Shown here piece by piece: positions 1,591-64,000 of a stretch of DNA of 64,000 bases. Source of the stretch: Labrys monachus (GTDB lineage: Bacteria > Pseudomonadota > Alphaproteobacteria > Rhizobiales > Labraceae); NCBI RefSeq assembly GCF_030814655.1, contig NZ_JAUSVK010000001.1, positions 4,595,001 to 4,659,000 on the forward strand. The letters run 5' to 3'. The notes under the pieces were generated by a model, which ran no database searches, had not been told where the DNA came from, and saw nothing but the letters and a program-made list of their open reading frames with translations. The number at the start of each line of letters is the position of its first letter. Within the stretch, counting starts at the first letter, position 1. The position numbers and the translations under genes were made by a program.

Positions 1591-2579
1591 TCCGCGACCG
1601 CTTCACCGCCTGGCGCATCCTCGGCGCCGTCCTCGTCCTGGCGGCGGCACTCGCCGCCCCGCAGGTGCTGACCAGCGCCGTCGCCCAGAACCTGGCGATC
1701 CTCTCGCTGCTCTATGCCGTCGTCGCCTCGAACTGGGACCTGACGCTCGGCTATGCCGGCATCTTCAACTTCGCCCATGTCGCCTTCTTCGGCATCGGCT
1801 CCTATGTCGCGGCGATCTCGACGCTGCAGTTCGACCTGCCGGTCTGGTGGGACCTGGTGCTGGCGGTCGCCGTGGTGATGGTGGTGGGGGCGATCGTCTC
1901 CGCCTTGGCGCTGCGGCTGCGCGGCATCTATGTGGCGCTGGTGACCTTCGCGCTCACCCAGCTCTGCGTCGCCCTCATCAACAGCCAGAAGGACCTCACC
2001 GGCGGCCCCGTCGGCCTGATCGGCGTGCCCGACCTGCAGATCGGCGATTTCGCCTTCGGCTCCGACCCGCGTTCCTATTTCTATGCCGCCGAGATCCTAC
2101 TGATCGCCTCGACGATCGCCATGCGCTGGCTCGCCACCTCGAATTTTGGCCTCAGCCTCGTCGCCCTGCGCGACTATGAGAACTACGCCGTCAGCCGCGG
2201 CATCCCGGCACGCCGGCAGCGGGTGCTCGCCATCGTGATCTCGAGCATCCCGACCAGCCTCGCCGGCTGCCTCTATGCGCATTACCTGATCGTCGCCTCC
2301 CCCGACGTGTTCTCCTTCTCGCTGACCACCCTGCTCCTCACCATGGTGCTGGTCGGCGGCGCCGGGACGATCTACGGGCCTATCCTGGCGGCGTTCGTCC
2401 TCACCGTCGGCACCGAGGAACTCTCCTCGCTCGGCAATTTCCGCTACATGATCGTCGCCGCCCTGATCGTGCTGACGCTGCGCTTCCTGCCCGGCGGCAT
2501 CTGGTCGCTGCGGCGTTGGCGACGGCCGGCGGCCCCCGCTCCGCTTTCGGTTGCTCTCGATGAGAAAGGCGCCCCATGA
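1587..2579 (+). CDS. livM: branched-chain amino acid-type ABC transporter permease (LivM family)
   Basis: Second permease of the importer, 330 aa from the ATG that overlaps the livH stop (ATGA). LivM marks are SNWDLTLGYAGIFNFAHVAFFG near residues 48-69 (family motif of the permease core), LRLRGIYVALVT near residues 109-120 and VGGAGTIYGP near residues 256-265. Longer readings that start inside livH carry no family similarity. The gene ends 43 bp before the preferred start of the next gene, so the transporter and the three enzyme genes downstream are probably one transcript. Confidence 0.92.
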   Translation: MIRDRFTAWRILGAVLVLAAALAAPQVLTSAVAQNLAILSLLYAVVASNWDLTLGYAGIFNFAHVAFFGIGSYVAAISTLQFDLPVWWDLVLAVAVVMVVGAIVSALALRLRGIYVALVTFALTQLCVALINSQKDLTGGPVGLIGVPDLQIGDFAFGSDPRSYFYAAEILLIASTIAMRWLATSNFGLSLVALRDYENYAVSRGIPARRQRVLAIVISSIPTSLAGCLYAHYLIVASPDVFSFSLTTLLLTMVLVGGAGTIYGPILAAFVLTVGTEELSSLGNFRYMIVAALIVLTLRFLPGGIWSLRRWRRPAAPAPLSVALDEKGAP

Positions 2580-2622
2580 ACCCGCCCCCGCCGCCATGTC
2601 CCGCTCTCGCGAGGGCGAACCG

Positions 2623-3384
2623 ATGAGCCGCTTTGCCGGCCGAAGAGCGATCGTCACCGGGGCCGCCGGCGGCATCGGCGCCGCCGTCGTGGCGCGGCTT
2701 CTGTCGGAAGGCGCCGCCGTCGCGGCGCTCGACCGCGACGAGCCGGCACTGGAGCGCCTCGCCGCCGCGCCCTCGCTGCATCGGGTCGCGGGCGATCTGC
2801 GCACACCCGAAACCGCCCGCGCGGCGGTGGCGAAGGCGGTCGGCCTGCTGGGCGGGCCGGCGGAGATCGTCGTCTCCGCCGCCGGCGTCTACGCCCTGTC
2901 GCCGGCCGCGAAGGTCGAGGCGCAGGACTGGGACTTCAACCAGGACATCAATCTCAAGGCGCCCTTCTTCGTCGCCCAGGCCGCCGTCGCGGCGCGGGCC
3001 GCCGGTGCGGCAGCGGCTGCCCAGCCGATGGCGATCGTCAACATCGCCTCGGTGGGCGCCTATCGCTCGGGCACGGGCGATGCCGCCCTCTCCTACAGCG
3101 CCAGCAAGGGCGGCCTCGTCGCCCTCACCCGCAGCATGGCGGCCGAATGGGCGCCGCAGGGCATCCGCGTCAACGTCGTCAGCCCGGGCGTCATCGACAC
3201 CGCCATGGTACGCATCATGGACGATCCCGACGCCGGCTCCGCCTGGCTCGAGGCGCGCGTGCCGATGGGCCGGCTCGGCCGTCCCGACGAGATCGCTGCC
3301 GTCGTTTGTTTCCTTGCCTCCGACGAGGCTTCCTACGTCACCGGCGCCGAACTGATCGCCGATGGCGGCTACATGTGCAGGTAA
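2623..3384 (+). CDS. short-chain dehydrogenase/reductase (SDR, classical)
   Basis: NAD(P)(H)-dependent oxidoreductase of 253 aa. The nucleotide motif TGAAGGIG is at residues 12-19, Asn110 and Ser143 fit the catalytic tetrad, and Tyr158-x3-Lys162 is the YxxxK motif in YSASK. The usual NNAG motif reads SAAG (85-88). Asp37 after the second beta strand (LDRD) favours NAD(H). The start at 2623 has GAGGG eleven bases upstream and gives the usual SDR N-terminus; in-frame ATGs at 2551 and 2596 would add an unstructured leader. It follows the livFHM genes, so it probably acts on the imported compound or a product of it; the substrate is unknown. Confidence 0.9.
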   Translation: MSRFAGRRAIVTGAAGGIGAAVVARLLSEGAAVAALDRDEPALERLAAAPSLHRVAGDLRTPETARAAVAKAVGLLGGPAEIVVSAAGVYALSPAAKVEAQDWDFNQDINLKAPFFVAQAAVAARAAGAAAAAQPMAIVNIASVGAYRSGTGDAALSYSASKGGLVALTRSMAAEWAPQGIRVNVVSPGVIDTAMVRIMDDPDAGSAWLEARVPMGRLGRPDEIAAVVCFLASDEASYVTGAELIADGGYMCR

Positions 3385-51583: not shown

Positions 51584-52057
51584 ATGAGCAAAGAGGATGA
51601 CAACAAGGCCGTCGTCATGCGGTGGTTCACCGAGTTCTGGGGAGAAAGCTGCAACCTGTCCGTCGTCGACGCCGTCGCCGCGCCGGACATGCTGCTGAAA
51701 TATTCGCTTCACGAACCGCGCCGCGGCCGTGACGACATCAAGGCCTTCATGACCGATTTCCGCGCGGCGTTCCCCGACCTCGGATTCCGGGGGACGGCGG
51801 CGCTGATCGCCGAAGGCGACTATGTCGTCGGCCAGTGGGAAGGCGGCGGCACCCATACGGGCCCGGCCTTCGCGGACTTTCTGATCGGCTCGCTGCCCGC
51901 CGCGACCGGCCGGACGATGCACTTCACCGGCACCACCGTCCTGAAGGTCGTCGGCGGCCGGATCGTCGAGGAAATCGGCCTCGACGATGGCGTCACGGCG
52001 CTCACCCAACTCGGCCTCATCGCGGCCTGTCCGCAGCCGCAGCAGGCGACGCGCTGA
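51584..52057 (+). CDS. SnoaL-like/ester-cyclase-family protein
   Basis: NTF2-fold protein of 157 aa with the SnoaL block MRWFTEFWGESCNLSVVDAVAAPDM and VVGQWEGGGTHTGP, GTTVLKVVGGRIVEE. Family members are polyketide cyclases, hydratases or small-molecule binding proteins. AAAGGAAG lies eight bases before the ATG. No partner genes for polyketide synthesis are near, so the exact role is open. Confidence 0.82.
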   Translation: MSKEDDNKAVVMRWFTEFWGESCNLSVVDAVAAPDMLLKYSLHEPRRGRDDIKAFMTDFRAAFPDLGFRGTAALIAEGDYVVGQWEGGGTHTGPAFADFLIGSLPAATGRTMHFTGTTVLKVVGGRIVEEIGLDDGVTALTQLGLIAACPQPQQATR

Positions 52058-52109
52058 TGCGGTCGCGGGGAGGCTCGCCTGCGGGCCTCCCCTTTCGGCC
52101 TGAGGCCGG

Positions 52110-52165
52110 CGAACGCCATCGCATTCGAAAGCAAGCACCGGAGTGAGCGCCGCGCGATGCGCCTG
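52110..52165. repeat. possible imperfect repeat, copy 2 (compare 51469-51523)
   Basis: See the copy at 51469-51523; each copy lies 40-60 bp before the start of a plus-strand gene. Confidence 0.3.
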
Positions 52166-52202
52166 TACTTTCGACGGTGACGACCATGAAGGAGCAATCG
52201 AT

Positions 52203-52985
52203 ATGACACGCATCACGGGAGACGCGGCATCTGCCGAGGAGAGGCCCGATCCCACCGCTGCCCCGGCTGCCGCGATGCCGTCCGTGGAGGCGCGGGTTTC
52301 GGGCCTCGACTGGCACAGGCTGGCGGAGGAGCTCGACGGCTTCGGCTGCGCCGTGATCGAAAAACTCCTCTCGCCCGGGGAATGCCGCGCCATCGCCGGT
52401 CTCTATCCGCAGGAGGCCCATTTCCGCAGCCATGTGCACATGGCGCGGCACGGTTTCGGGAAAGGCGAATATCGCTATTTCAGATATCCCCTTCCCGATC
52501 TCCTCGGCGGCCTGCGCAGCGCGCTCTATCCACCCCTGGCCGCCATCGCCAATGCCTGGAACGAGCGCATGGGCATGGCGCAGCGCTACCCCGACCGGCA
52601 CGCCGATTTCCTCGGGCAATGTCACGAGCAGGACCAGACCCGGCCGACGCCGCTGCTGCTGCAATATGGTCCGGGCGACTTCAACTGCCTGCACCAGGAC
52701 CTTTACGGAGACCTCGCTTTTCCCCTGCAGGTCGCGATCCTCCTGTCCGAGCCCGGCAGGGACTTCACCGGCGGCGAGTTCGTCCTCACCGAACAGCGAC
52801 CGCGCATGCAGAGCCGGGCCGAGGTGGTGCCGCTCCGCCAGGGCGACGCCGTGGCCTTCGCGGTGCACGACCGGCCCGTGAAAGGAACGAAAGGCTACTA
52901 TCGCGTCAATCTCCGGCATGGCGTCAGCCGCCTGCGCTCCGGCAGGCGCCACACCGTCGGCATCATCTTCCACGACGCGACATAG
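52203..52985 (+). CDS. 2-oxoglutarate/Fe(II)-dependent oxygenase-like protein
   Basis: Protein of 260 aa with a double-stranded beta-helix core. Probable iron ligands are His164 and Asp166 (CLHQDLYGD) and His239 (RHGVSRLRSG), followed by Arg for the 2-oxoglutarate carboxylate. LLSEPGRDFTGGEFVLTEQ is a typical strand block. GGAG lies eight bases before the ATG at 52203; an upstream in-frame start at 52143 is less likely. It may hydroxylate a protein or small molecule; the substrate is unknown. Confidence 0.85.
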   Translation: MTRITGDAASAEERPDPTAAPAAAMPSVEARVSGLDWHRLAEELDGFGCAVIEKLLSPGECRAIAGLYPQEAHFRSHVHMARHGFGKGEYRYFRYPLPDLLGGLRSALYPPLAAIANAWNERMGMAQRYPDRHADFLGQCHEQDQTRPTPLLLQYGPGDFNCLHQDLYGDLAFPLQVAILLSEPGRDFTGGEFVLTEQRPRMQSRAEVVPLRQGDAVAFAVHDRPVKGTKGYYRVNLRHGVSRLRSGRRHTVGIIFHDAT

Positions 52986-53019
52986 ATCGAGGCCGACCGG
53001 CGCCGGTCCCGTCGCGGCC

Positions 53020-53745
53020 TCACGCCCGGTGCGGATCCTGGCCTTCCGGCAGCGCGCGCCGGGCCAGTACCGCCGCCCTGAGGGCCGCGACGGCGCTGCC
53101 GGGCGTGGTGATGACGGGGGCCGCCGTCGCCAGCGCCGTGCGGCCATGGGCGCGGGCGAGCGAGAACTGGCCGAGGACGACGGCATCGACCTCGCCGAGG
53201 CCGGCGGCCGCCTCGGCGACCAGGGCGTCGTGCCGCTCGCCGTCGCCGGCCTTGAGCGCCTCGAGCGCTCCCGCGGCCACGGCCGAGACGACAGTGACCT
53301 CGCGGCCTTGCGCGGCCGCCATGGCATGCAGCTCCTGCTCCAGCGAAAGCCGGGAGGGCTCGAAGGAGACGACGAGGCCGATGCGGTCGCCGGCGCGGAG
53401 GGCGGTCTCGAAGGCGGCCTCGTTCGGCCTCAGCACGGGAATCGCGGCGCGGGCCTTGACGGCGTCGATCGCCGGCCCGAAGGCGGAGCAGGTGAAGAGG
53501 ATGCCCGCCGTGCGCCCGCCCCTGCCGCCATGCGCGGCAACATAGTCGGCGAGGGTGTGGAAGCGGGCGACCATGCCGTCGTCGAGCCGGCCGGCATCGG
53601 CGCGGTCGACGGCCAGCGAGGTGTCGAGCAGGTCATAGGCGAAGGCTTCCGGCCAGCCTTGCGCGAAGGCCTCGCGGGCCGGCGCGACCGATTCCTCGAG
53701 CGCATGGATCATCGCGATGCGCGCGACGGCGTCACTCGCCGGCAT
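53020..53745 (-). CDS. Asp/Glu/hydantoin racemase-superfamily protein with one catalytic cysteine
   Basis: Protein of 241 aa with Cys86 in LFTCSAFG, the first catalytic Cys of the Asp/Glu racemase fold. The second Cys expected near VVLACTGM is absent: the segment reads VVLGQFSLARA. A one-base racemase mechanism is therefore unlikely; isomerases or decarboxylases of this superfamily (for example arylmalonate decarboxylase) also work with one Cys. It overlaps the dehydrogenase gene by 14 bp and probably acts in the same pathway. Confidence 0.8.
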   Translation of the reverse strand: MPASDAVARIAMIHALEESVAPAREAFAQGWPEAFAYDLLDTSLAVDRADAGRLDDGMVARFHTLADYVAAHGGRGGRTAGILFTCSAFGPAIDAVKARAAIPVLRPNEAAFETALRAGDRIGLVVSFEPSRLSLEQELHAMAAAQGREVTVVSAVAAGALEALKAGDGERHDALVAEAAAGLGEVDAVVLGQFSLARAHGRTALATAAPVITTPGSAVAALRAAVLARRALPEGQDPHRA

Positions 53746-54667
53746 GGCGGGCCTCCTTCCGCGCGGCGAGGATGCGGGTGATCGCCTCGTCGCGGGCCGC
53801 TTCGAGTTCGGCGATCGAACGTCCCGCCGCCTCGGCCGCCACCCCTTCGACCAGCATGGCGCAGATCTCCGGCGTCAGGCTCGGCGAGCCCAGCGTCGCC
53901 CAGCGCCGTTCCTGGCTCGGCCCGAGATGTTCGAGGTAATGGGCGATGCCCTCGCCGCCGCCGCCGAGATGATAGGCCATGTGGGCGCCGACCGCCGACC
54001 AGCGCAGGCCCGGGCCGTTGACCAGCGCCGCATCGACGGTGGCGACGTCGGCGATGCCCTCGGCGACGATGTTGACCGCCTCGCGCCAGAGGGCGGAGGC
54101 CAGGCGGTTGGCGACATGGCCGACGGCGTCGCGGTTGAGGACGACCGCCTCGCGCCCGAGCGACCGGTAGAAACCGGCGGCGCGCTCGCGCAAGGCGGCA
54201 TCGCGCGCATAGATCTCGACGAGCGGCATGATGTGCGGCGGGTTGAAAGGATGGGCGGTGACGAAGCGGCCGGGATGGCGCATGTCGCGCGCCAGCTCCG
54301 ACCAGGTCAGCGAGGAGGTGCTGCTGGCGATGACGGCATCCGGCGGCGCGGCGCCTTCGATCCGGCCATAGAGTTCGCGCTTGAGCGGCACCGATTCGGG
54401 GGCGTTCTCCTGGATCCAGGTGGCGGCGGCCACCGCCTCCTCCAGCGTGCGGGCGACGAGAAGGCGCCCGTCCCGCTCCGTGCCCCGCCCCTCGATGCGG
54501 CGGACCTGGCGCCGCGCCCCTTCGACGCGCTCGAGGAGAGGCTCCGCCGCCGGCGACGCCGGATCCCACACGGCGACGTCGTGGCCATGGGCGGTGAAGA
54601 GGGCCGACCAGCTCTCCCCGATCAGGCCGCAGCCGATGATCGCGATCGTTTCCGGCCCTTGCGCCAT
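53732..54667 (-). CDS. 3-hydroxyacyl-CoA dehydrogenase family protein (short 3-hydroxybutyryl-CoA/carnitine dehydrogenase type)
   Basis: NAD-dependent dehydrogenase of 311 aa with the glycine motif in AIIGCGLIGES near residues 9-19, Asp after strand two (VWDP), the catalytic His in VTAHPFNPPH and Asn in VGHVANRLASAL. Single-domain proteins of this size act on 3-hydroxybutyryl-CoA, carnitine or L-gulonate. ATG at 54667 follows AGGAGGAG. A LacI-type core lies 57 bp upstream. Confidence 0.88.
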   Translation of the reverse strand: MAQGPETIAIIGCGLIGESWSALFTAHGHDVAVWDPASPAAEPLLERVEGARRQVRRIEGRGTERDGRLLVARTLEEAVAAATWIQENAPESVPLKRELYGRIEGAAPPDAVIASSTSSLTWSELARDMRHPGRFVTAHPFNPPHIMPLVEIYARDAALRERAAGFYRSLGREAVVLNRDAVGHVANRLASALWREAVNIVAEGIADVATVDAALVNGPGLRWSAVGAHMAYHLGGGGEGIAHYLEHLGPSQERRWATLGSPSLTPEICAMLVEGVAAEAAGRSIAELEAARDEAITRILAARKEARHAGE

Positions 54668-54722
54668 GTTGGCTCCTCCTGCCTGCGGATTCGCGCCAGC
54701 CTGCCACGCCCGGCGCTGCCTT

Positions 54723-54736
54723 CGAAAGCGTTTTCG
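54723..54736. promoter_or_regulatory. third GAAARCGYTTTC site, LacI-type operator before the dehydrogenase-racemase pair
   Basis: CGAAAGCGTTTTCG is symmetric apart from the two bases next to the central CG. The core GAAAGCGTTTTC fits the same pattern as the two sites near 8014 and 8192, which suggests control by the LacI regulator at 12877 or a close relative. Confidence 0.5.
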
Positions 54737-54833
54737 CAACGTTCGCACCGCCGGGCCAAGGCGGCGGCCGCGGCAAGGCGGCGCCTCTCTGCCGAATTTT
54801 CCCCGGCCGGATGGAAGCCGCGGCTCAAACCTG

Positions 54834-54864
54834 TTGACAAGCGCCGCCCTGCTTGCTTTGTAAT
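54834..54864 (+). promoter_or_regulatory. promoter of the amide-sensing operon
   Basis: TTGACA at 54834-54839 is a consensus -35 box; TTTGTAAT at 54857-54864 is the -10 region at about 17-19 bp spacing. Transcription should start near 54870, just before the hexaloop hairpins of the leader. Confidence 0.6.
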
Positions 54865-54873
54865 CATGATTAA

Positions 54874-54928
54874 GCGGAAGGCAGTTTCCGCCACATCGGC
54901 CTTCAGCGGCCATCGGGCAGTTTCGCCC
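54874..54928 (+). promoter_or_regulatory. leader hexaloop hairpins, probable ANTAR (AmiR) binding RNA
   Basis: Three short hairpins with six-base loops follow the promoter: GCGGAA-GGCAGT-TTCCGC (54874-54891), GGCC-TTCAGC-GGCC (54898-54911) and GGGC-AGTTTC-GCCC (54915-54928). ANTAR proteins bind pairs of hexaloop stem-loops, the second of which overlaps a terminator. The third hairpin here shares GCCC with the 5' arm of the terminator at 54925. Loop bases fit the A1 rule only in the third hairpin, so the exact protein site is uncertain. Confidence 0.6.
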
Positions 54929-54975
54929 CACGGCATCTCATGACATCCATGGGATAGCGTGGGGCTTTTTGTTTT
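54925..54975 (+). terminator. leader terminator (attenuator) in front of the amiC-like gene
   Basis: GCCCCACG (54925-54932) pairs perfectly with CGTGGGGC (54958-54965), followed by TTTTTGTTTT. It ends 7 bp before the amiC ATG, so it must be bypassed for any expression of the operon. The 5' arm is shared with the hairpin at 54915-54928, making the two structures exclusive. Confidence 0.85.
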
Positions 54976-54982
54976 GGGCTCC

Positions 54983-56122
54983 ATGAGCAGGTTTCGCATC
55001 GGTATCCTCTATTCGACCGAAGGGCCCTATGCGGCCCTGGGGCGGGACTGCCGCGACGGCGCCGAGCTCGCCGTCGAGGACCTGCGGGCGGAGCATGCGG
55101 ATGTCGGCATCGAGCCCGTCTTCGGCGACCCGAAAGGCCAGGCGCCGCTCTATCTCGACCTCGCGCGCGCCATGCTGCGCGACCAGGGCTGCCGGCACAT
55201 CGTCGGCACGGTGACCTCGCTGGCGCGCAAGGACGTCATCCCCCTCATCGAAAAGCATGACGGGCTGCTCTGGTACATGTGCCCCTATGAGGGCTTCGAG
55301 GCCAATGAGAGCGTGATCTACACCGGCGCCTGCCCGAACCAGCATCTCCTGCCGCTGTTCGACCATTTGCTGCCCCGCCACGGCTCGCGCGTCTATCTCG
55401 CCGGCGCGAATTACGTCTGGGGCTGGGAGATGAACCGGCTGGCGCGCGAACTGGTGGCGCAGGCCGGCGGCGAGGTCGTCGGCGAGCGATGCCTTCCGTT
55501 GGAGGAGACGCATGTCGACCGCCTGATCGCTGACATCGAGCAGCGCCGGCCGGACTTCATCCTCAACAATCTGATCGGCCCGGCGAGCTATGCCTTCCTG
55601 GCCGCGATCCGGCGCCTCGCCGACCGCGACCCGTCCTTCGCTCCGGAGCGCCGCCCCGTGGTGAGCTGCGACCTCACCGAATGCGAACTCGGCGAGATCG
55701 CGGACGGTGCCGCGATCGGCCAATTGGCGACGGCCTCCTATTTCGACAGTCTCGCCACGCCTCGCAACCTCGCCTTCAAGCGCCGGGTCGCCGCCCGGTT
55801 CGGGCCGCACCGCCGGGTCTCCAGCTTCTTCGCCGGCGCCTACACCGCCGTCCGGCTCTGCGCCGAGACCATCCTGGCCGCCGGCGGCGACGACCCGGCA
55901 GCGATCCGCGGCAGGCTGCATGCCGGTCCGGCCGAGACCGTGCTCGGCCCCCTCGCCGTCGATCCGCGCACCAACCACGCCGCGCTGCCCTTCCATCTCG
56001 GGCGCATCAACCGGGAGGGTGGCTTCGACATCCTCGCCTCGAAGCCGGCGATCGCCGCCGACCCCTATCTGATCGGCGACCGGACCCGCCGCGCCGCTCC
56101 GCATCTGAGGCTGGTCCGATGA
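54983..56122 (+). CDS. amiC: AmiC-like ligand-binding sensor protein
   Basis: Periplasmic-binding-protein fold of 379 aa without a signal peptide, hence cytoplasmic like AmiC of Pseudomonas. It starts FRIGILYSTEGPYAALGRDCRDGAELAVED and has ANYVWGWEMNRLARELVAQAGGEVVGE and FFAGAYTAVRL, close to AmiC/urea-binding (FmdD/UrtA) receptors. ATG at 54983 is chosen; the in-frame GTG at 54959 would place the start inside the terminator stem. The Shine-Dalgarno region is weak (TTGGG). AmiC binds amides and controls the antiterminator AmiR, whose gene overlaps by four bases. Confidence 0.85.
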   Translation: MSRFRIGILYSTEGPYAALGRDCRDGAELAVEDLRAEHADVGIEPVFGDPKGQAPLYLDLARAMLRDQGCRHIVGTVTSLARKDVIPLIEKHDGLLWYMCPYEGFEANESVIYTGACPNQHLLPLFDHLLPRHGSRVYLAGANYVWGWEMNRLARELVAQAGGEVVGERCLPLEETHVDRLIADIEQRRPDFILNNLIGPASYAFLAAIRRLADRDPSFAPERRPVVSCDLTECELGEIADGAAIGQLATASYFDSLATPRNLAFKRRVAARFGPHRRVSSFFAGAYTAVRLCAETILAAGGDDPAAIRGRLHAGPAETVLGPLAVDPRTNHAALPFHLGRINREGGFDILASKPAIAADPYLIGDRTRRAAPHLRLVR

Positions 56123-56703
56123 GCACCACACCGAGCTTCAACGGCTGGCATGCCGCGGTGCTGCACCGCCTGGACGACGGCATCGAGCGGCTGGGCCGGC
56201 AGCTCGAACGGCTCGGCCTCGCCGTCACCGTGCAATGGGCCCCGCTCGACCTCGCCCGCATCAATCCCGACATCGTGCTGGTGGATGCCGACCAGGGCTG
56301 GGACGGCCTGCTGCCCTGGCAGGCCGGCGCCGCGCCGATGCCGCTCGTCGCGCTGCTCGGCTCCGAGGCGCCAGGGCGCATCGCCTGGGCGATGGAGCAT
56401 GGCGCCGGCGCGCTGATCGCCAAGCCGGTCGCTTCCTCCGCCGTCTACCCCTCCCTCGTCATGGCCGTCCACATGCATGCGCAGCGTCTGGCCATGGCCA
56501 AACGCTGCGCCGACCTCGAGGAACGCATGCGCCTGAGGCCGCTGGTCCATGGCGCCGTGCACGCCATCATGGCGGCCCGGCTGGTCGACGAAAGCGCCGC
56601 CTACAGCCTCCTGCGCTGCACCGCCATGCGGCGGCGGCTGACGATCGAGCAGATCGCCGCCGGCATCGTCGCCGGGCAGGAACCCGTGCCGGAGGCGGTC
56701 TGA
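56119..56703 (+). CDS. amiR: AmiR-like ANTAR-domain transcription antiterminator
   Basis: Protein of 194 aa: N-terminal pseudo-receiver domain (DIVLVDADQGWDG, without a clear phosphorylation pocket), a coiled coil (AKRCADLEERMRLRPLVHGAV) and a C-terminal ANTAR domain (HAIMAARLVDESAAYSLLRCTAMRRRLTIEQIAAGIV, about residues 147-185). ANTAR proteins bind leader RNA and prevent termination. Its gene follows amiC and the operon leader has a terminator, which makes the function well supported. Confidence 0.88.
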   Translation: MSTTPSFNGWHAAVLHRLDDGIERLGRQLERLGLAVTVQWAPLDLARINPDIVLVDADQGWDGLLPWQAGAAPMPLVALLGSEAPGRIAWAMEHGAGALIAKPVASSAVYPSLVMAVHMHAQRLAMAKRCADLEERMRLRPLVHGAVHAIMAARLVDESAAYSLLRCTAMRRRLTIEQIAAGIVAGQEPVPEAV

Positions 56704-57551
56704 TGCGGGTGATGCTCGCGCTCCTGCGCCGCCCGGCCGCGATGGTCGGGCTCGTCATCGTCGGGCTGGTCGTGGTCGGCGCGCTGCTGGCGCCCTGGCT
56801 CGCGCCCTTCTCGCCCGACGACCAGATGTTCGACGGATTGTCGCTCGACGGCGCGCCGCTGCCGCCGAGCGCCCATTACCTGCTCGGCACCGACACGCTC
56901 GGCCGCGACCTGCTTTCCCGCCTGCTGTTCGGGGCGCGCACCTCGCTCGTCATCGGCCTCGTCGCCAACGGCACGGCGGTGGCGATCGGCCTCCTGGTCG
57001 GCATCGTCGCCGGCTACACGCGCGGGATGTTCGGCAACATGCTGATGCGCTTCACCGACCTGATGATGGCGTTTCCGGCGCTGCTGCTGGCGATCGCGCT
57101 GGCGGCGCTGCTGAGGCCGAGCCTGTGGATCGTGGCGCTGGTGATCGCGCTGGTGAACTGGGTGCAGGTGGCGCGCATCGTCTACACCGAGACGCGCGGC
57201 CTGGCGGAGCGCGACTTCATCACCGCCGAGCGCTCGCTCGGGGCCGGGCACGGCCGCATCCTGTTCTTCCACATCCTGCCGCATCTGATGCCGACGGCCA
57301 TCGTGTGGGGCACGCTCGGCATCGCCACCACAGTGCTGCTCGAAGCCACGCTCAGCTTCCTCGGCATCGGCGTCCAGCCGCCGCAACCCTCCTGGGGCAA
57401 CATCATCTATGAGAGCCAGAGCTATTTCCAGGATGCGCCCTGGCTGGTGTTCATCCCCGGCGCGGTGATCCTGGCGACCGCCCTCTCCTTCAACCTGATC
57501 GGCGATGCGCTGCGCGACATCCTCGATCCGACGCAGCGCGGCAGGGGCTGA
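56703..57551 (+). CDS. peptide/amide ABC transporter permease (DppC family)
   Basis: Permease of 282 aa with LLGTDTLGRDLLSRLLFGARTSL, the DppC/OppC N-terminal motif, and the EAA loop ARDFITAERSLGAGHGRILFFHILPHL-like segment before the last helices. It forms a heterodimer with the DppB-type product encoded next. The ATG overlaps the amiR stop by one base. Confidence 0.92.
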   Translation: MRVMLALLRRPAAMVGLVIVGLVVVGALLAPWLAPFSPDDQMFDGLSLDGAPLPPSAHYLLGTDTLGRDLLSRLLFGARTSLVIGLVANGTAVAIGLLVGIVAGYTRGMFGNMLMRFTDLMMAFPALLLAIALAALLRPSLWIVALVIALVNWVQVARIVYTETRGLAERDFITAERSLGAGHGRILFFHILPHLMPTAIVWGTLGIATTVLLEATLSFLGIGVQPPQPSWGNIIYESQSYFQDAPWLVFIPGAVILATALSFNLIGDALRDILDPTQRGRG

Positions 57552-57552
57552 C

Positions 57553-58473
57553 ATGGCATTGTTCCTGGCCCGGCGCCTGCTGCAGGCGGCCTTCATCCTC
57601 CTCGGCGTCGCCGCCATCACCTTCGTCCTGCTCTATTGCCTACCGGCGGACCCGGCGGTGCTGATCGCCGGACGCAGCGCCACGCCGCCGATGGTCGCCG
57701 CCATCCGCCACGAGCTCGGGCTCGACCAACCGCTGATCCTGCAGTTCCTGCACTATCTCGACGGCCTGCTGCATGGCGACCTCGGCCGCTCCTACACGCA
57801 GAAGACGGCGGTGGCGCCGCTGATCCTGGCGCGGCTGCCGGCGACCCTGGTGCTGATGGCGGCCGGCATCCTCGTCGAGGTCGCGCTCGGGCTGACCTTC
57901 GGCATCATCGCCGCGGTACGCCGCGACGGCCTGACCGACCGCGTCGTGATGATGCTCTCCTTCGTCGGCGTGTCTTCGCCGCAATTCGTGGTGGCGCTGC
58001 TGCTGCTCTATGTCTTCGCGGCGACGCTCGGCTGGTTCCCGATGTCGGGCTTCGGCACGCCGGCCCATGTCGTGCTGCCCGCCCTCACGCTCGGCGTGCT
58101 CGGCGCCGGCTGGTATGCGCGCATGGTGCGCTCGGCGATGATCGAGGTGCTGCGCCAGGATTACGTCCGCACGGCGCGCGCCAAGGGCGTCCCCGCCGCA
58201 AGGGTGGTGCTGCGCCATGCCCTGCCGAACGCCCTCCTGCCGATCATCGCGATGATCGGCATCGATATCGGCCAGTTCATGGGCGGTGTCGTCGTCGTCG
58301 AGGCCGTCTATGGCTGGCCCGGCATCGGCCAGCTCGCCTGGCAGGCGATCCAGCAGGTGGACGTGCCCATCATCATGGGCGTGACGCTGGTGTCCGCGCT
58401 CGCCATCGTGCTCGGCAACCTCGTCGCCGACTTCATCGCCCCCTTCGTCGACCCGCGCATCCGCGCGCAATAG
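57553..58473 (+). CDS. peptide/amide ABC transporter permease (DppB family)
   Basis: Permease of 306 aa with the DppB start FLARRLLQAAFILLGVAAITFVLLY, LGLDQPLILQFLHYLDGLLHGDLGRSY (split near residues 57-82) and the EAA loop QDYVRTARAKGVPAARVVLRHALPNALLP. It begins one base after the dppC stop, an order (C before B) that is the reverse of the usual dppABCDF. Confidence 0.92.
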   Translation: MALFLARRLLQAAFILLGVAAITFVLLYCLPADPAVLIAGRSATPPMVAAIRHELGLDQPLILQFLHYLDGLLHGDLGRSYTQKTAVAPLILARLPATLVLMAAGILVEVALGLTFGIIAAVRRDGLTDRVVMMLSFVGVSSPQFVVALLLLYVFAATLGWFPMSGFGTPAHVVLPALTLGVLGAGWYARMVRSAMIEVLRQDYVRTARAKGVPAARVVLRHALPNALLPIIAMIGIDIGQFMGGVVVVEAVYGWPGIGQLAWQAIQQVDVPIIMGVTLVSALAIVLGNLVADFIAPFVDPRIRAQ

Positions 58474-58502
58474 CAGGCCCAGAGATCTCAGAGGAGAACA
58501 GC

Positions 58503-60122
58503 ATGCTGAAGAATTTGCTCAAATATACGGCGTTGGCGACGGTGCTCGCCCTTGCTCCCGCCGCCGCCCAAGCGGAGACGCCGAACCGCGGCGGCACCAT
58601 CACCGTGACGTTCAAGGACGACATCGCGACCCTCGATCCGGCCATCGGCTATGACTGGCAGAACTGGTCGATGATCAACGGCCTGTTCTCGCGCCTTGTC
58701 GACTACAAGCCGGGCTCGACCGTGCTCGGCCCGTCGCTGGCCGATTCCTACACCGTCTCGCCGGACGGCAAGAGCTACACCTTCAAGCTGCATCCCGGCG
58801 TCAAGTTCACCAACGGGCGCGAGATCACCGCCGCGGACGTGAAATATTCGATCGAGCGCGCCGTCAATCCGAAGACCCAGGGGCCCGGGGCCGGCTTCTT
58901 CCATTCGATCGTCGGCGCCGACAAGCTGACGGCCGGCACCGCCCAGGCGATGGACGGCATCGTCGCGGTCGACGACCACACAGTGCGCTTCGACCTCGTC
59001 CAGCCCGACGCGACCTTCCTCAACGTGCTCGCCCTCAACTTCGCGTCAGTCGTGCCGAAGGAAGCGGTCGAGGCGGCGAACGGCGATTTCGGCAAGCATC
59101 CGGTCGGCTCGGGCGCCTTCATGCTGAAGGAATGGACGGTGGGCCAGCGCCTGGTGTTCCAGCGCAACCCGGACTATTTCGTCAAGGAGCGTCCCTATAT
59201 CGACGGCTTCACCATCGAGATCGGCCAGGAGCCGCTCGTCGCCCTGCTGCGCCTCCAGAAGGGCGAGGTCGACATCGCCGGCGACGGTATTCCGCCGGCC
59301 AAATATCTGGAGATGAAGAAGTCGCCCGATTTCGCCGGCATGATCGTCGACCGCGACCAGCTCGAAACCAGCTATGTGACGCTGAACACGCAGGTCAAGC
59401 CCCTCGACAATCCCAAGGTGCGCCAGGCCCTCAACATGGCGATCAACAAGGACCGCATCGTGCGCATCATCAACGGGCGCGCCACGCCCGCCAACCAGGT
59501 GCTGCCGCCGCTGATGCCGGGCTACGACAAGGACTACAAGGGCTATGCCTATGACGTCGCCAAGGCCAAGGCCCTGCTCGCCGAGGCGGGGCTGCCGGAC
59601 GGCTTCTCGACCCAGCTCTATACCTCCAACACCGATCCGCAGCCGCGCATCGCCCAGGCGATCCAGCAGGATCTCGCCGCGGTCGGCGTCAAGGCCGAGA
59701 TCAAGGCGCTCGCCAATCCCAACGTGATCGCCGCCGGCGGTACGCAGGGCCAGGCGCCGATGGTGTGGTCGGGCGGCCTCGGCTGGATCGCCGACTTCCC
59801 GGATCCCTCCGACTTCTACGGACCGATCCTGGCCTGCGGCAGCGCGGTCGCGGGCGGCTGGAACTGGTCCTGGTACTGCAACAAGGACATCGAGCCCCGG
59901 GCGCAGGCGGCTGACGCGATGCCGGTTCCCGCCAAGGCGGCCGAGCGCAATGCGGTGTGGGCGCAGATCTTCACCGAGATCCAGTCCAAGGACGCGCCCT
60001 GGATCCCGGTGTTCAACGAGCGCCGCGTCGTGGCGAAGTCGAAGCGCATGGGCGGCCCGGACGAGGTCTACATCGACCCGACCCGCGTCATCGACTACGA
60101 CGCGATCTATGTGAAGCCATAA
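58503..60122 (+). CDS. peptide/amide ABC transporter substrate-binding protein (DppA/SBP family 5)
   Basis: Periplasmic receptor of 539 aa with a signal peptide (LLKYTALATVLALAPAAAQA) and the family 5 motifs GGTITVTFKDDIATLDPAIGYD, LADSYTVSPDGKSYTFKLHPGVKFTNG and VRQALNMAINKDRIV (each within the first 320 residues). GAGGAGAA lies before the ATG. It binds oligopeptides or, given the AmiC/AmiR sensor and formamidase around it, an amide. The gene is followed by a large inverted repeat before the next coding region. Confidence 0.92.
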   Translation: MLKNLLKYTALATVLALAPAAAQAETPNRGGTITVTFKDDIATLDPAIGYDWQNWSMINGLFSRLVDYKPGSTVLGPSLADSYTVSPDGKSYTFKLHPGVKFTNGREITAADVKYSIERAVNPKTQGPGAGFFHSIVGADKLTAGTAQAMDGIVAVDDHTVRFDLVQPDATFLNVLALNFASVVPKEAVEAANGDFGKHPVGSGAFMLKEWTVGQRLVFQRNPDYFVKERPYIDGFTIEIGQEPLVALLRLQKGEVDIAGDGIPPAKYLEMKKSPDFAGMIVDRDQLETSYVTLNTQVKPLDNPKVRQALNMAINKDRIVRIINGRATPANQVLPPLMPGYDKDYKGYAYDVAKAKALLAEAGLPDGFSTQLYTSNTDPQPRIAQAIQQDLAAVGVKAEIKALANPNVIAAGGTQGQAPMVWSGGLGWIADFPDPSDFYGPILACGSAVAGGWNWSWYCNKDIEPRAQAADAMPVPAKAAERNAVWAQIFTEIQSKDAPWIPVFNERRVVAKSKRMGGPDEVYIDPTRVIDYDAIYVKP

Positions 60123-60129
60123 ACGCGAC

Positions 60130-60278
60130 CACCCTCCCCTGGAGGGGGAGGGTCGGCCTGCAAGGCCGGGGTGGGGTGAAAACGCAACGTTCGAGATCAG
60201 GGTGAGGCCAAGATTTCCCGCAAGGGAATCACCCCACCCCGACACTTCGTGTCGACCCTCCCCCTCCAGGGGAGGGTG
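60130..60278. repeat. large palindromic intergenic repeat between dppA-like and formamidase genes
   Basis: Outer arms 60130-60155 and 60253-60278 are perfect 26-bp reverse complements, each itself nearly palindromic around CCCTCCCC/GGGGAGGG. Inner arms 60167-60179 and 60229-60241 are a further 13-bp perfect match. In RNA this gives a long structured hairpin inside the operon mRNA. The composition resembles mosaic intergenic repeats common in Hyphomicrobiales. Confidence 0.85.
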
Positions 60279-60349
60279 AAACTTTCGACCGAACGCATCA
60301 CCTGCGCGCCCTGCAAAATCCCATCTCCCAAGGCAGGAAAGGTCCCATC

Positions 60350-61290
60350 ATGTGCGTGGCATGCGACTACACCATCCATCGCAAGAACCACCATCTCGGC
60401 TGGAACCGCGACTTCGAGCCGGTGCTCACCGCCATGCCGGGCAAGACCATCCATTTCGAGTGCCTGGATTCGTCCGGCGGCCAGTTCGATGCCGATTCCA
60501 CCGCCGAGACCGTCAAGACCATGGATTTCTCCCGGGTCAATCCGGTGACCGGGCCCGTCTATGTCGAGGGCGCCGAACCCGGCGACGTGCTCAAGGTCAC
60601 GATCCGGCATTTCGCCCCGTCCGGGCTCGGCTGGACCGCCAACATTCCGGGCTTCGGCCTGCTGGCGGACCAGTTCATCGAGCCCGCCATCCATATCTGG
60701 AAATATGACCCGGCCTCGATGGCGCCGTCCCTGTTCGGGCCGGGCGGCAAGGTGCCGCTGAAGCCCTTCGCCGGCACCATCGGCGTCGCGCCGGCCGAGC
60801 CCGGCCTGCATTCGGTGGTGCCGCCCCGCCGCGTCGGCGGCAATCTCGACATCCGCGACCTCACGGCCGGCGTGACGCTCTATCTGCCCGTCGAGGTGCC
60901 GGGCGCTCTGTTCTCGATCGGCGACACCCATGCCGCACAGGGCGACGGCGAAGTCTGCGGCACGGCGATCGAGAGCCGCATGGACGTCGACGTCACCCTC
61001 GACCTCGTCAAGGACACGCCGCTGCAATCGCCCCGCTTCACCACCCCCGGGCCGGTGACGCGCCATCTCGACGCCGCCGGCTACGAAGTCACCACCGGTA
61101 TCGGCCCCGATCTGATGACCGGCGCCCGCGAGAGCGTCATGCGCATGATCGACCTGCTGACCGCCGAGCACGGGCTGTCGCCGGTCGACGCCTACATGCT
61201 CTGCTCCGTCTGCGGCGACCTGCGGATCAGCGAGATCGTCGACATGCCGAACTGGGTGGTGTCGTTCTACTTCCCGCGGATCGTGTTCGC

Positions 61291-61294
<4 letters not shown>
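60350..61294 (+). CDS. acetamidase/formamidase family protein (FmdA-type)
   Basis: Amide hydrolase of 314 aa with the family segments NHHLGWNRDFEPVL, GPVYVEGAEPGDVLKV, GDTHAAQGDGEVCGTAIE and CSVCGDLRISEIVD (all visible between residues 14 and 300). It releases ammonia from formamide, acetamide or a related short amide. It lies between the transporter receptor and the ATPase gene, so the operon both senses (AmiC), imports and cleaves the amide. The stop overlaps the next ATG by four bases. Confidence 0.9.
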
Positions 61295-62973
<1,679 letters not shown>

Positions 62974-63341
62974 ATCAGGCCCCTGTCCCGGCGAGAGGGG
63001 CGGACGCTAAGAAAATGAGCTGCCTTCTCCCGACCCGGGAGAAGGTCCCGGCAGGGGGATGAGGGCCTGAACTTCGACGCAGATCGCTCAAAATCGCGCT
63101 TCAATTGTCGAAGTTCAGACCCTCATCCGGCGCTTCCGCGCCACCTTCTCCCGACCCGGGAGAAGGAAAAACGCGCTATATTCTGCAAACTTGGCGTCAA
63201 AAGGCTATTTTGTAGCAGCTTTCATCGACCATCTGACCTCAGCGAGATGCGCACGACGCGCTTTCCGCTCCTCTCGGGTGAGGGCCCGTTTGAGAGGCTG
63301 ATTTTGCCACGATGTAGATCGGGCACATGGCGCCGGGCCTC
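62974..63341. other. gap after the amide operon
   Basis: Holds the large inverted repeat and about 170 bp of lower-GC DNA up to the antitoxin stop. No gene could be supported; a 74-codon frame on the minus strand overlaps the antitoxin and has no family similarity. Confidence 0.5.
63023..63166. repeat. second large palindromic intergenic repeat, after the amide operon
   Basis: Outer units 63023-63046 and 63143-63166 are each self-palindromic (CTTCTCCCG...CGGGAGAAG), and inner arms 63057-63078 and 63107-63128 pair over 22 bp with one mismatch. It lies 49 bp after the ATPase stop and may end the operon transcript or stabilise it. Confidence 0.85.
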
Positions 63342-63662
63342 TCAGCCCAGCACTTGCAGCCCATGCTTTTGAATAAGGGTCAGGAGCTTCAAGGCCATTC
63401 CGCTGGGTCGTTTTGCTCCAGATTCCCACTTTTGCACGGTGGACACACTTGTGTTGAGATAGCGCGCAAAAATAGGCTGGCTCACATGGTTACCTTCGCG
63501 GAGGGCCTTGATGTCCTGAGGTCCAAGTTCCGCTGGAACAGCCAGGCAAGCGTCGTCAAAGCTTCGGAGCGTCTCCTTATCGATCGTTCCGGCCCGATAC
63601 ATATCCTCGACCGAAGTATAGACCGCTTCGAAGGCATCGCTTTTGAATTTCTTATGCGGCAT
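63342..63662 (-). CDS. XRE-family antitoxin (HigA/NadS-like)
   Basis: DNA-binding antitoxin of 106 aa with a C-terminal HTH (PAELGPQDIKALREGNHVSQPIFARYLNTSVSTVQKWESGAKRPSG, about residues 38-82). The ATG at 63662 has GGAG seven bases upstream and overlaps the toxin stop codon by 11 bp, the usual toxin-then-antitoxin order of the higBA/relE-nadS type. The reading frame is intact, unlike that of the toxin. Lower GC than the rest of the window. Confidence 0.85.
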   Translation of the reverse strand: MPHKKFKSDAFEAVYTSVEDMYRAGTIDKETLRSFDDACLAVPAELGPQDIKALREGNHVSQPIFARYLNTSVSTVQKWESGAKRPSGMALKLLTLIQKHGLQVLG

Positions 63663-64000
63663 GACAGATCTCCACGATAGCTCCGATTTCCAGTTCAGCT
63701 GCGACATCTGCGGATGTCTTTCGTTGGTAGAGCCCCGCCAGTTTGCGGAATTCCGCCAATTCGGCGTCGGTTATGTTTGGTCTATCTTTTTCGCGAACAA
63801 ATAGACATAAATCCAAAACTCTCCGCTCTTCGCCAAAATGATCGATCTGTACATATTGTCTTTCAGGCGTTTCTTGAAGACCCTCCTCCTAGATCATCCG
63901 CCTGCCCGGATGCGACCTGCCTGATCGCCTTGCACAATTCCGTGTCCGATATCCGTGCCTTGCGTGCAGCTTTGGCGAACCATGCGGTTTTGAATGTTCG
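63652..64000 (-). pseudogene. RelE/HigB-like (Gp49 family) toxin gene with two frameshifts, 5' end outside the window
   Basis: From the right edge the minus strand codes TFKTAWFAKAARKARI and CKAIRQVASGQADDLGGG, then another frame gives KKRLKDNMYRSIILAKSGEF and WIYVYLFAKK, then a third gives DRPNITDAELAEFRK and VEICHAA before the stop at 63654-63652. Together these make one HigB/RelE-like toxin of about 115 aa. The frame changes fall at 63879-63883 (a run of G, one base short) and 63787-63791 (a run of five A, one short). The gene is therefore broken in this sequence, or two bases were lost in sequencing. No piece is long enough to be found as an ordinary open frame. Confidence 0.8.

Follow-up and report, generated by a model that had tools for sequence, protein, structure and literature searches.

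A predicted AmiC-AmiR antitermination leader lacking the canonical G4 loop base in Labrys monachus and related Rhizobiales

Introduction

How is an operon controlled when the genes for its own sensor and antiterminator lie directly behind its leader? This question is raised by a locus of Labrys monachus, whose genome consists of a single contig of 6.9 Mb. A stretch of 64,000 nucleotides (hereafter, the window) contains genes resembling amiC and amiR, preceded by a short leader with several hairpins and followed by genes for an importer and an acetamidase/formamidase family enzyme. Antitermination is described as the established mechanism for other proteins with an ANTAR domain (PMC3369931, PMC3369936). 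An earlier note, made from the letters of the window, had proposed a self-controlled attenuator of this kind. The genes, the leader, its relatives and its loop bases were, thus, examined for what they say about this proposal.

Genes of the operon

The features of the locus are collected in Table 1. The upstream neighbour is a divergent 3-hydroxyacyl-CoA dehydrogenase-like gene, and the promoter motif and the leader lie between this gene and amiC. The earlier note had called the first two genes AmiC- and AmiR-like, and profile and structure comparisons bear this out for both: the first is a Peripla_BP_5 protein closest to Pseudomonas aeruginosa AmiC among PDB entries, while the second combines an AmiR_N domain with a C-terminal ANTAR domain. 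A structural model of the latter (pLDDT 91.8) comprises a receiver-like domain, a long helix and three ANTAR helices, and a fold search with this model returned AmiR (1qo0, E 4.8e-10, TM 0.58) and EutV with RNA as top matches.

Table 1. Predicted features of the amiC-amiR locus, in window positions.
Feature	Positions	Strand	Basis and remarks
Promoter: -35 TTGACA (54834-54839), -10-like TGTAAT (54859-54864), spacer of 19 bases	54834-54864	+	TTGAC in 81/82 clade leaders
P0, accessory 5' hairpin GCGGAA-GGCAGT-TTCCGC	54874-54891	+	-9.5 kcal/mol; in many but not all relatives
P1 hairpin GGCC-TTCAGC-GGCC, directly 5' of P2	54898-54911	+	-7.5 kcal/mol; stem kept, loop size and sequence free
P2 antiterminator hairpin GGGC-AGTTTC-GCCC, predicted AmiR target	54915-54928	+	-6.9 kcal/mol; in 82/82 leaders
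Intrinsic terminator hairpin GCCCCACG..CGTGGGGC	54925-54965	+	-27.7 kcal/mol; 5' arm has GCCC in common with P2
Terminator U-tract TTTTTGTTTT	54966-54975	+	T-runs at the same place in the alignment of clade leaders
amiC-like ligand sensor (Peripla_BP_5)	54983-56122	+	Pfam, 322.7 bits; best PDB match P. aeruginosa AmiC 1pea, E 4.6e-50
amiR-like antiterminator: AmiR_N receiver-like domain, long helix, ANTAR	56119-56703	+	Pfam AmiR_N 38.5 bits, ANTAR 36.2 bits, both over cut-off
DppC/OppC-type permease	56703-57551	+	Pfam
DppB/OppB-type permease	57553-58473	+	Pfam
Family 5 substrate-binding protein (SBP_bac_5)	58503-60122	+	347.6 bits
FmdA/AmdA acetamidase/formamidase family enzyme	60350-61294	+	212.6 bits; NCBIfam formamidase 131.1 of 500 bits, below cut-off
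Fused DppD-DppF-type ATPase	61291-62973	+	Pfam, NCBIfam

Since amiC and amiR, and likewise amiR and dppC, overlap by a few bases, co-transcription is likely. The gap before fmdA measures about 230 bases and contains a palindromic repeat. The arrangement that had been described, with an attenuator preceding the sensor gene and an importer plus an FmdA-type enzyme downstream, was found in full, and loci with the same operon belong to the Rhizobiales. One of them (L082) is on plasmid pRL11 of Rhizobium leguminosarum 3841, also listed as R. johnstonii 3841. All seven genes keep their order at 60 of the 65 rhizobial loci; among the exceptions, the contig ends first in L056, L067, L072 and L106, and L064, on a long contig, has the first four genes only, without the last three.

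Two side observations concern the spaces between genes. Long, near-palindromic, GC-rich intergenic repeats occupy 60129-60278, between the binding-protein and fmdA genes, and 63027-63162; matches of the Rfam family MIR8670 on these repeats are below the cut-off and look like chance. In one genome (L163, about 2000-3200, reverse strand), amiC and amiR are parted by some 1.2 kb of inserted sequence, yet the leader and the following genes of the operon persist.

The ligand of the sensor was approached through its binding pocket, for which we take the P. aeruginosa AmiC residues to be Y83, S85, Y104, T106, Y150 and Y152. In a comparison covering 77 of the 78 clade rows, S85 and Y104 are kept in all 77 and Y150 in 76, whereas Y83 (to I, V or A), T106 (to C) and Y152 (to W) are replaced in every one. 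The clade probably has a single ligand in common, one other than plain acetamide. The label "amide sensor" stands insofar as the protein is of AmiC type but, because three presumed pocket positions are replaced throughout, acetamide itself is in doubt as the ligand. With an FmdA-type enzyme and a peptide-type importer in the operon, formamide-like or larger amides may be considered.

The receiver-like domain of AmiR has two invariant residues, Asp55 and Lys101 (counted from the second codon), present in all 103 lineage members and placed at the ends of model strands 3 and 5, the sites of the phosphoacceptor and the switch lysine in a true receiver. No conserved acidic pair follows strand 1, so that phosphorylation is doubtful. 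AmiR is described in PMC3369936 as a non-phosphorylated pseudo-receiver. A second input is nevertheless conceivable.

Architecture and folding of the leader

The leader between the upstream gene and amiC has about 110 bases and is accompanied by the TTGACA promoter motif. The promoter motif of the earlier note was found at its place, and the window's own copy is included in the conservation count of Table 1. A consensus promoter scan of 54650-63900, which takes spacers of 16-18 bases and requires A at the second -10 position, returned no promoter; it misses this one because the spacer is longer and TGTAAT lacks an A at that position. The terminator range given previously (54925-54975) is correct for hairpin and U-tract together. 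The overlap proposed between the P2 hairpin and the 5' arm of the terminator is likewise present: GCCC at 54925-54928 is both the 3' arm of P2 and the start of the terminator. The term "hexaloop hairpins" fits P1 and P2, whose loops have six bases in the window, but less well P0, for which the energy model gives a four-base loop, though it can be drawn with six.

The leader (54865-54985) folds better than any of 200 dinucleotide shuffles (z -3.58). In folds of the growing transcript, P0, P1 and P2 form first, and the terminator displaces P2 once its base is completed at 54965. Enforcing P2 in the full fold costs little (-49.1 versus -50.4 kcal/mol predicted), and the base of the terminator beside the U-tract is then lost. 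Sequence and comparison, thus, show one GCCC, downstream of the conserved promoter motif, for which P2 competes with the intrinsic terminator, and both structures persist in relatives.

The great strength of the terminator (Table 1) would also suit a fixed attenuator, or a stand-alone small RNA ending at its own terminator, with amiC transcribed from another promoter and AmiR acting elsewhere. This is quite improbable: the distance from terminator hairpin to amiC start is only 17 bases in the window and about 20-40 in most of the clade, the competition between P2 and terminator is kept in all 82 leaders counted, and the covariance model described below (150 candidates scored) returned no second site in the own genome.

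Conservation in relatives

The leaders counted comprise 82 sequences (L001, which is the window, L005, L016-L029, L031 and L044-L108), 79 of them distinct. A P2 hexaloop overlapping the terminator occurs in every one of these members of the amiC-amiR clade under a search pattern that fixes the stem letters as [GA]GGC/GCC[CT], and a freer script gave the same overlap in 78/78 members with distinct AmiR. For L045, L054 and L100, the terminator rule initially failed or settled on an incorrect site; all three pass in the 82-leader count. L030, a 3.5 kb locus showing no AmiC, was omitted; a longer stretch contains its leader, and about 1.2 kb is inserted there between amiC and amiR.

Covariation was scored over the 79 distinct leaders on structures taken from one sequence, L047, against shuffle controls that remove relatedness only in part. 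Pairing in the antiterminator helices extends to 95.1% of cells (27-64% with partners slid), and 35 cells have double changes (7.3 +/- 2.3 in shuffles); two of the five measures, namely pairs with double changes (85/500) and further pair types (225/500), do not rise above the shuffles. Within these helices, P1 has double-sided changes in all three tested pairs, with 88.5% of cells paired. P2 is paired in 100% of cells, with double-sided changes at the outer pair only; three of its four pairs are invariant and, hence, uninformative either way. Pairing in the terminator stem covers 96.7% of cells; 6 of its 11 pairs have double-sided changes, a number reached by 3/500 shuffles, and double-change cells number 17 versus 3.5 +/- 1.6 in shuffles. 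Alignment column 67, the outer P2 base common to both stems, contains C or U; in 79/79 leaders this base has a partner in P2 and in the terminator alike, so that both competing stems are preserved. An unguided RNAalifold consensus draws P2, places the terminator in another register and leaves P1 undrawn, with a small covariation term (-0.65).

The earlier note had named loss of the hairpins or terminator in relatives as one of two observations that would speak against it. In the alignment, these elements are conserved, with compensatory changes in the terminator and P1, and the proposal comes through this half of the comparison.

The 5' part of the leader is less constant. Among 52 leaders with an ATTAGGC-like motif, a set to which the window leader does not belong, a 5' stem of 4 bp or more is present in 43, compared with a mean of 28.8 and a maximum of 37 over 200 shuffles. 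P0 was considered as a conserved first hexaloop and rejected, as the remaining 9 leaders have no 4-bp stem and the loop is not constant. Just before the P1 stem, ACAT is kept in many leaders of the alignment, though it is unpaired in the predicted structure.

A further conceivable mechanism is an attenuator in which a ribosome on a short leader reading frame chooses between P2 and terminator. The window has an ATG at 54866, opening a frame of 25 codons, and ATGAC precedes P1 in many relatives. Nevertheless, comparison by eye shows that the relatives' ATGAC frames diverge through single-base changes in the P1 region (for example, L020 versus L047), and that L016, L018, L022 and L024 have no ATG there, which makes leader-peptide control extremely improbable.

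Loop bases and predicted recognition by AmiR

Published descriptions place A1 and G4 in both loops of the nasF, eut and amiE leaders and call these bases critical for NasR and EutV (PMC3369931, PMC3369936), and EutV Tyr164 is described as stacking on G4 (PMC8934654). In the present clade, position 1 of the P2 loop is A in 81/82 leaders, and position 4 is G in only 2/82. None of P0, P1 and P2 in the window leader has a loop with both A1 and G4. Nor is there a second upstream hexaloop with these bases: the P1 loop varies in size among relatives, and the window's P1 loop (TTCAGC) and P0 loop both depart from the rule. The view of this leader as a canonical ANTAR target, therefore, had to be given up, while its other part, a P2 hexaloop that begins with A and overlaps an intrinsic terminator, was confirmed. 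Judged by its sequence, the leader is an ANTAR target in layout, minus one defining base and the dual hexaloop.

In a tree of AmiR, 37/43 rows of the lineage lack G4 and 6/43 have it; the 49 rows of the tree were chosen from 128, one per distinct loop plus a sample, so that rare loops are over-represented. The own genome contains two more amiC-amiR pairs (L003/L109 and L002/L111; G000:C1:4509906-4513738), divergent and adjacent, about 81-85 kb before the window start. The leaders of these paralogs have hexaloops with A1 and G4 (ACAGAC in L002, AAAGAG in L003), unlike the window leader.

Compared with the RNA contact residues of EutV as given in PMC8934654, the window AmiR keeps the equivalents of R142, E160, Y164, R168, M172 and R175, and replaces K143 (by P), K147 (G), K149 (V), N173 (R) and R177 (T). 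The idea that loss of Lys149 accounts for the loss of G4 was rejected: AmiR of the paralogs L002 and L007 also has Val there, yet G4 persists in their leaders. Positions 143 and 147 (EutV numbering) are Pro/Gly in the window, Arg/Lys in L002 and Lys/Gln in L003. A tentative explanation, to which we give somewhat less than an even chance, is that recognition follows another code in this alphaproteobacterial AmiR lineage, depending on one A1 hexaloop on a GGC/GCC stem, with no flipped-out G4 and perhaps with the P1 helix as second contact. Paralogous antiterminators would then be kept from acting on each other's targets by their distinct loops, and AmiR positions 143 and 147 would be candidate specificity residues.

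Distribution of the leader

A covariance model was built from leaders of the same clade, with a limited number of candidates scored per genome (150 in the own genome, and stricter filters in the order-wide search). It gave a single match in the own genome, at 58.5 bits. Among 297 genomes of the order, matches occurred in 15, one each, and 13 of these 15 lie before amiC. One of the two others precedes a gene that, by eye, resembles a nitrate transporter binding protein, and has the canonical loops AACGAA and AGAGCC. This match ties the leader class to ANTAR leaders, even though leaders of the other type had served to train the model. The second (L162) is weak (E 9.3e-4), and the gene after it is presumably mutM-like.

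These matches also bear on the idea that a small molecule, or another RNA-binding protein, acts on the leader directly, with AmiC and AmiR as passengers. The non-canonical P2 loop is compatible with such a riboswitch-like element, as is the retention, in many leaders, of P0 and of the ACAT before P1. It is, nevertheless, very improbable, given the position before amiC in 13 of the 15 genomes and the canonical ANTAR loops of one of the two remaining matches; furthermore, an Rfam search of 52000-64000 found no family at its cut-off, the best score in the leader being 18 bits versus 49.5.

In the wider AmiC lineage, the leader stands directly before amiC in 19/25 rows by script and in 3 more by eye, these three being among the six rows for which the script gave no P2 (L006, L144, L145, L146, L149 and L150). 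In the Pseudomonas-type lineage, whose 25 rows contain five places twice, only one row has it there, the own-genome paralog L109. A script seeking only loops that start with A found a hexaloop-terminator element further upstream in 2/5 longer Pseudomonas-type stretches (loops AACAAG and AAAAAA). The spread of the leader across the wider lineage, against a single Pseudomonas-type row, makes a leader before the sensor a lineage trait and not a peculiarity of this genome. Among the matches listed in searches of openly accessible full texts, no paper on a rhizobial amiC-amiR leader was found.

Proposed mechanism

The leader is likely a protein-controlled transcription attenuator, predicted to be worked by the operon's own AmiC and AmiR, with P2 stabilised by AmiR that a ligand has freed. 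When there is no inducer, AmiC would hold AmiR, and most RNA polymerase would stop at about 54975. Binding of a ligand, probably a small amide-like compound, to AmiC would release AmiR, which could then dimerise through its long helix and bind the P2 loop with its ANTAR domain, recognising this loop without the usual G4. With P2 held closed, the terminator stem would be shortened and parted from the U-tract, and polymerase would read on into amiC-amiR-dppC-dppB-SBP-fmdA-dppDF.

AmiR and AmiC would themselves be products of this read-through, forming a closed, self-regulated unit that should reinforce itself while the inducer lasts and be shut afterwards by the co-made AmiC. The positive feedback loop predicted by the earlier note would, thus, be too simple a description: as the inhibitor AmiC and the activator AmiR are made together, feedback is predicted to be positive only while inducer is present. 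Self-control had also been put forward as a contrast with Pseudomonas. This contrast falls away, as PMC5259723 reports that the whole ami operon of P. aeruginosa is transcribed by antitermination; on that report, self-control is not new.

Comparison with known systems

The P. aeruginosa amiEBCRS operon has the same components, namely an AmiC sensor, an AmiR antiterminator and an attenuator in the operon leader, with the regulator genes inside the controlled operon according to PMC5259723. It differs in that its leader precedes amiE, whereas that of Labrys lies directly before amiC, and in its amiE-B genes, where Labrys has a Dpp-type importer and an FmdA-type enzyme. The proteins differ too: AmiC pocket positions differ between the clade and P. 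aeruginosa, and Asp55 and Lys101 of the window AmiR correspond to Ser and Gln in P. aeruginosa AmiR. The amiE loops, by published description, have A1 and G4 (PMC3369931), in contrast to the P2 loop of the window.

Canonical dual hexaloop RNAs (nasF, eutP/G/S/A) resemble the window leader in that the 3' arm of P2 is the 5' arm of the terminator and that the loop begins with A1. The window leader departs from them by the missing G4, by a first hairpin that is not a conserved hexaloop, and by an extra P1 helix with a free loop beside P2. A Klebsiella plasmid operon is described as combining amiC and amiR with an amidase and an ABC importer (PMC13209695), and Labrys has fmdA in place of its amiE. 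In the sequence of another Klebsiella plasmid, a branched-chain-type transporter and an FmdA-family gene precede amiC.

Judging from these comparisons, the predicted mechanism itself is of a known kind, and the novelty is a conserved leader class without the G4 base that was thought essential. That so many AmiR leaders, conserved as a set, lack G4 suggests that the A1/G4 rule fails for this lineage, or that recognition has changed. Published motif models keep both bases; a search insisting on A1 and G4 would overlook leaders of this kind. For the rhizobia that carry it, the leader and its operon appear to form a regulatory unit complete in itself, apparently with one site per genome, that would serve the scavenging of amides and nitrogen.
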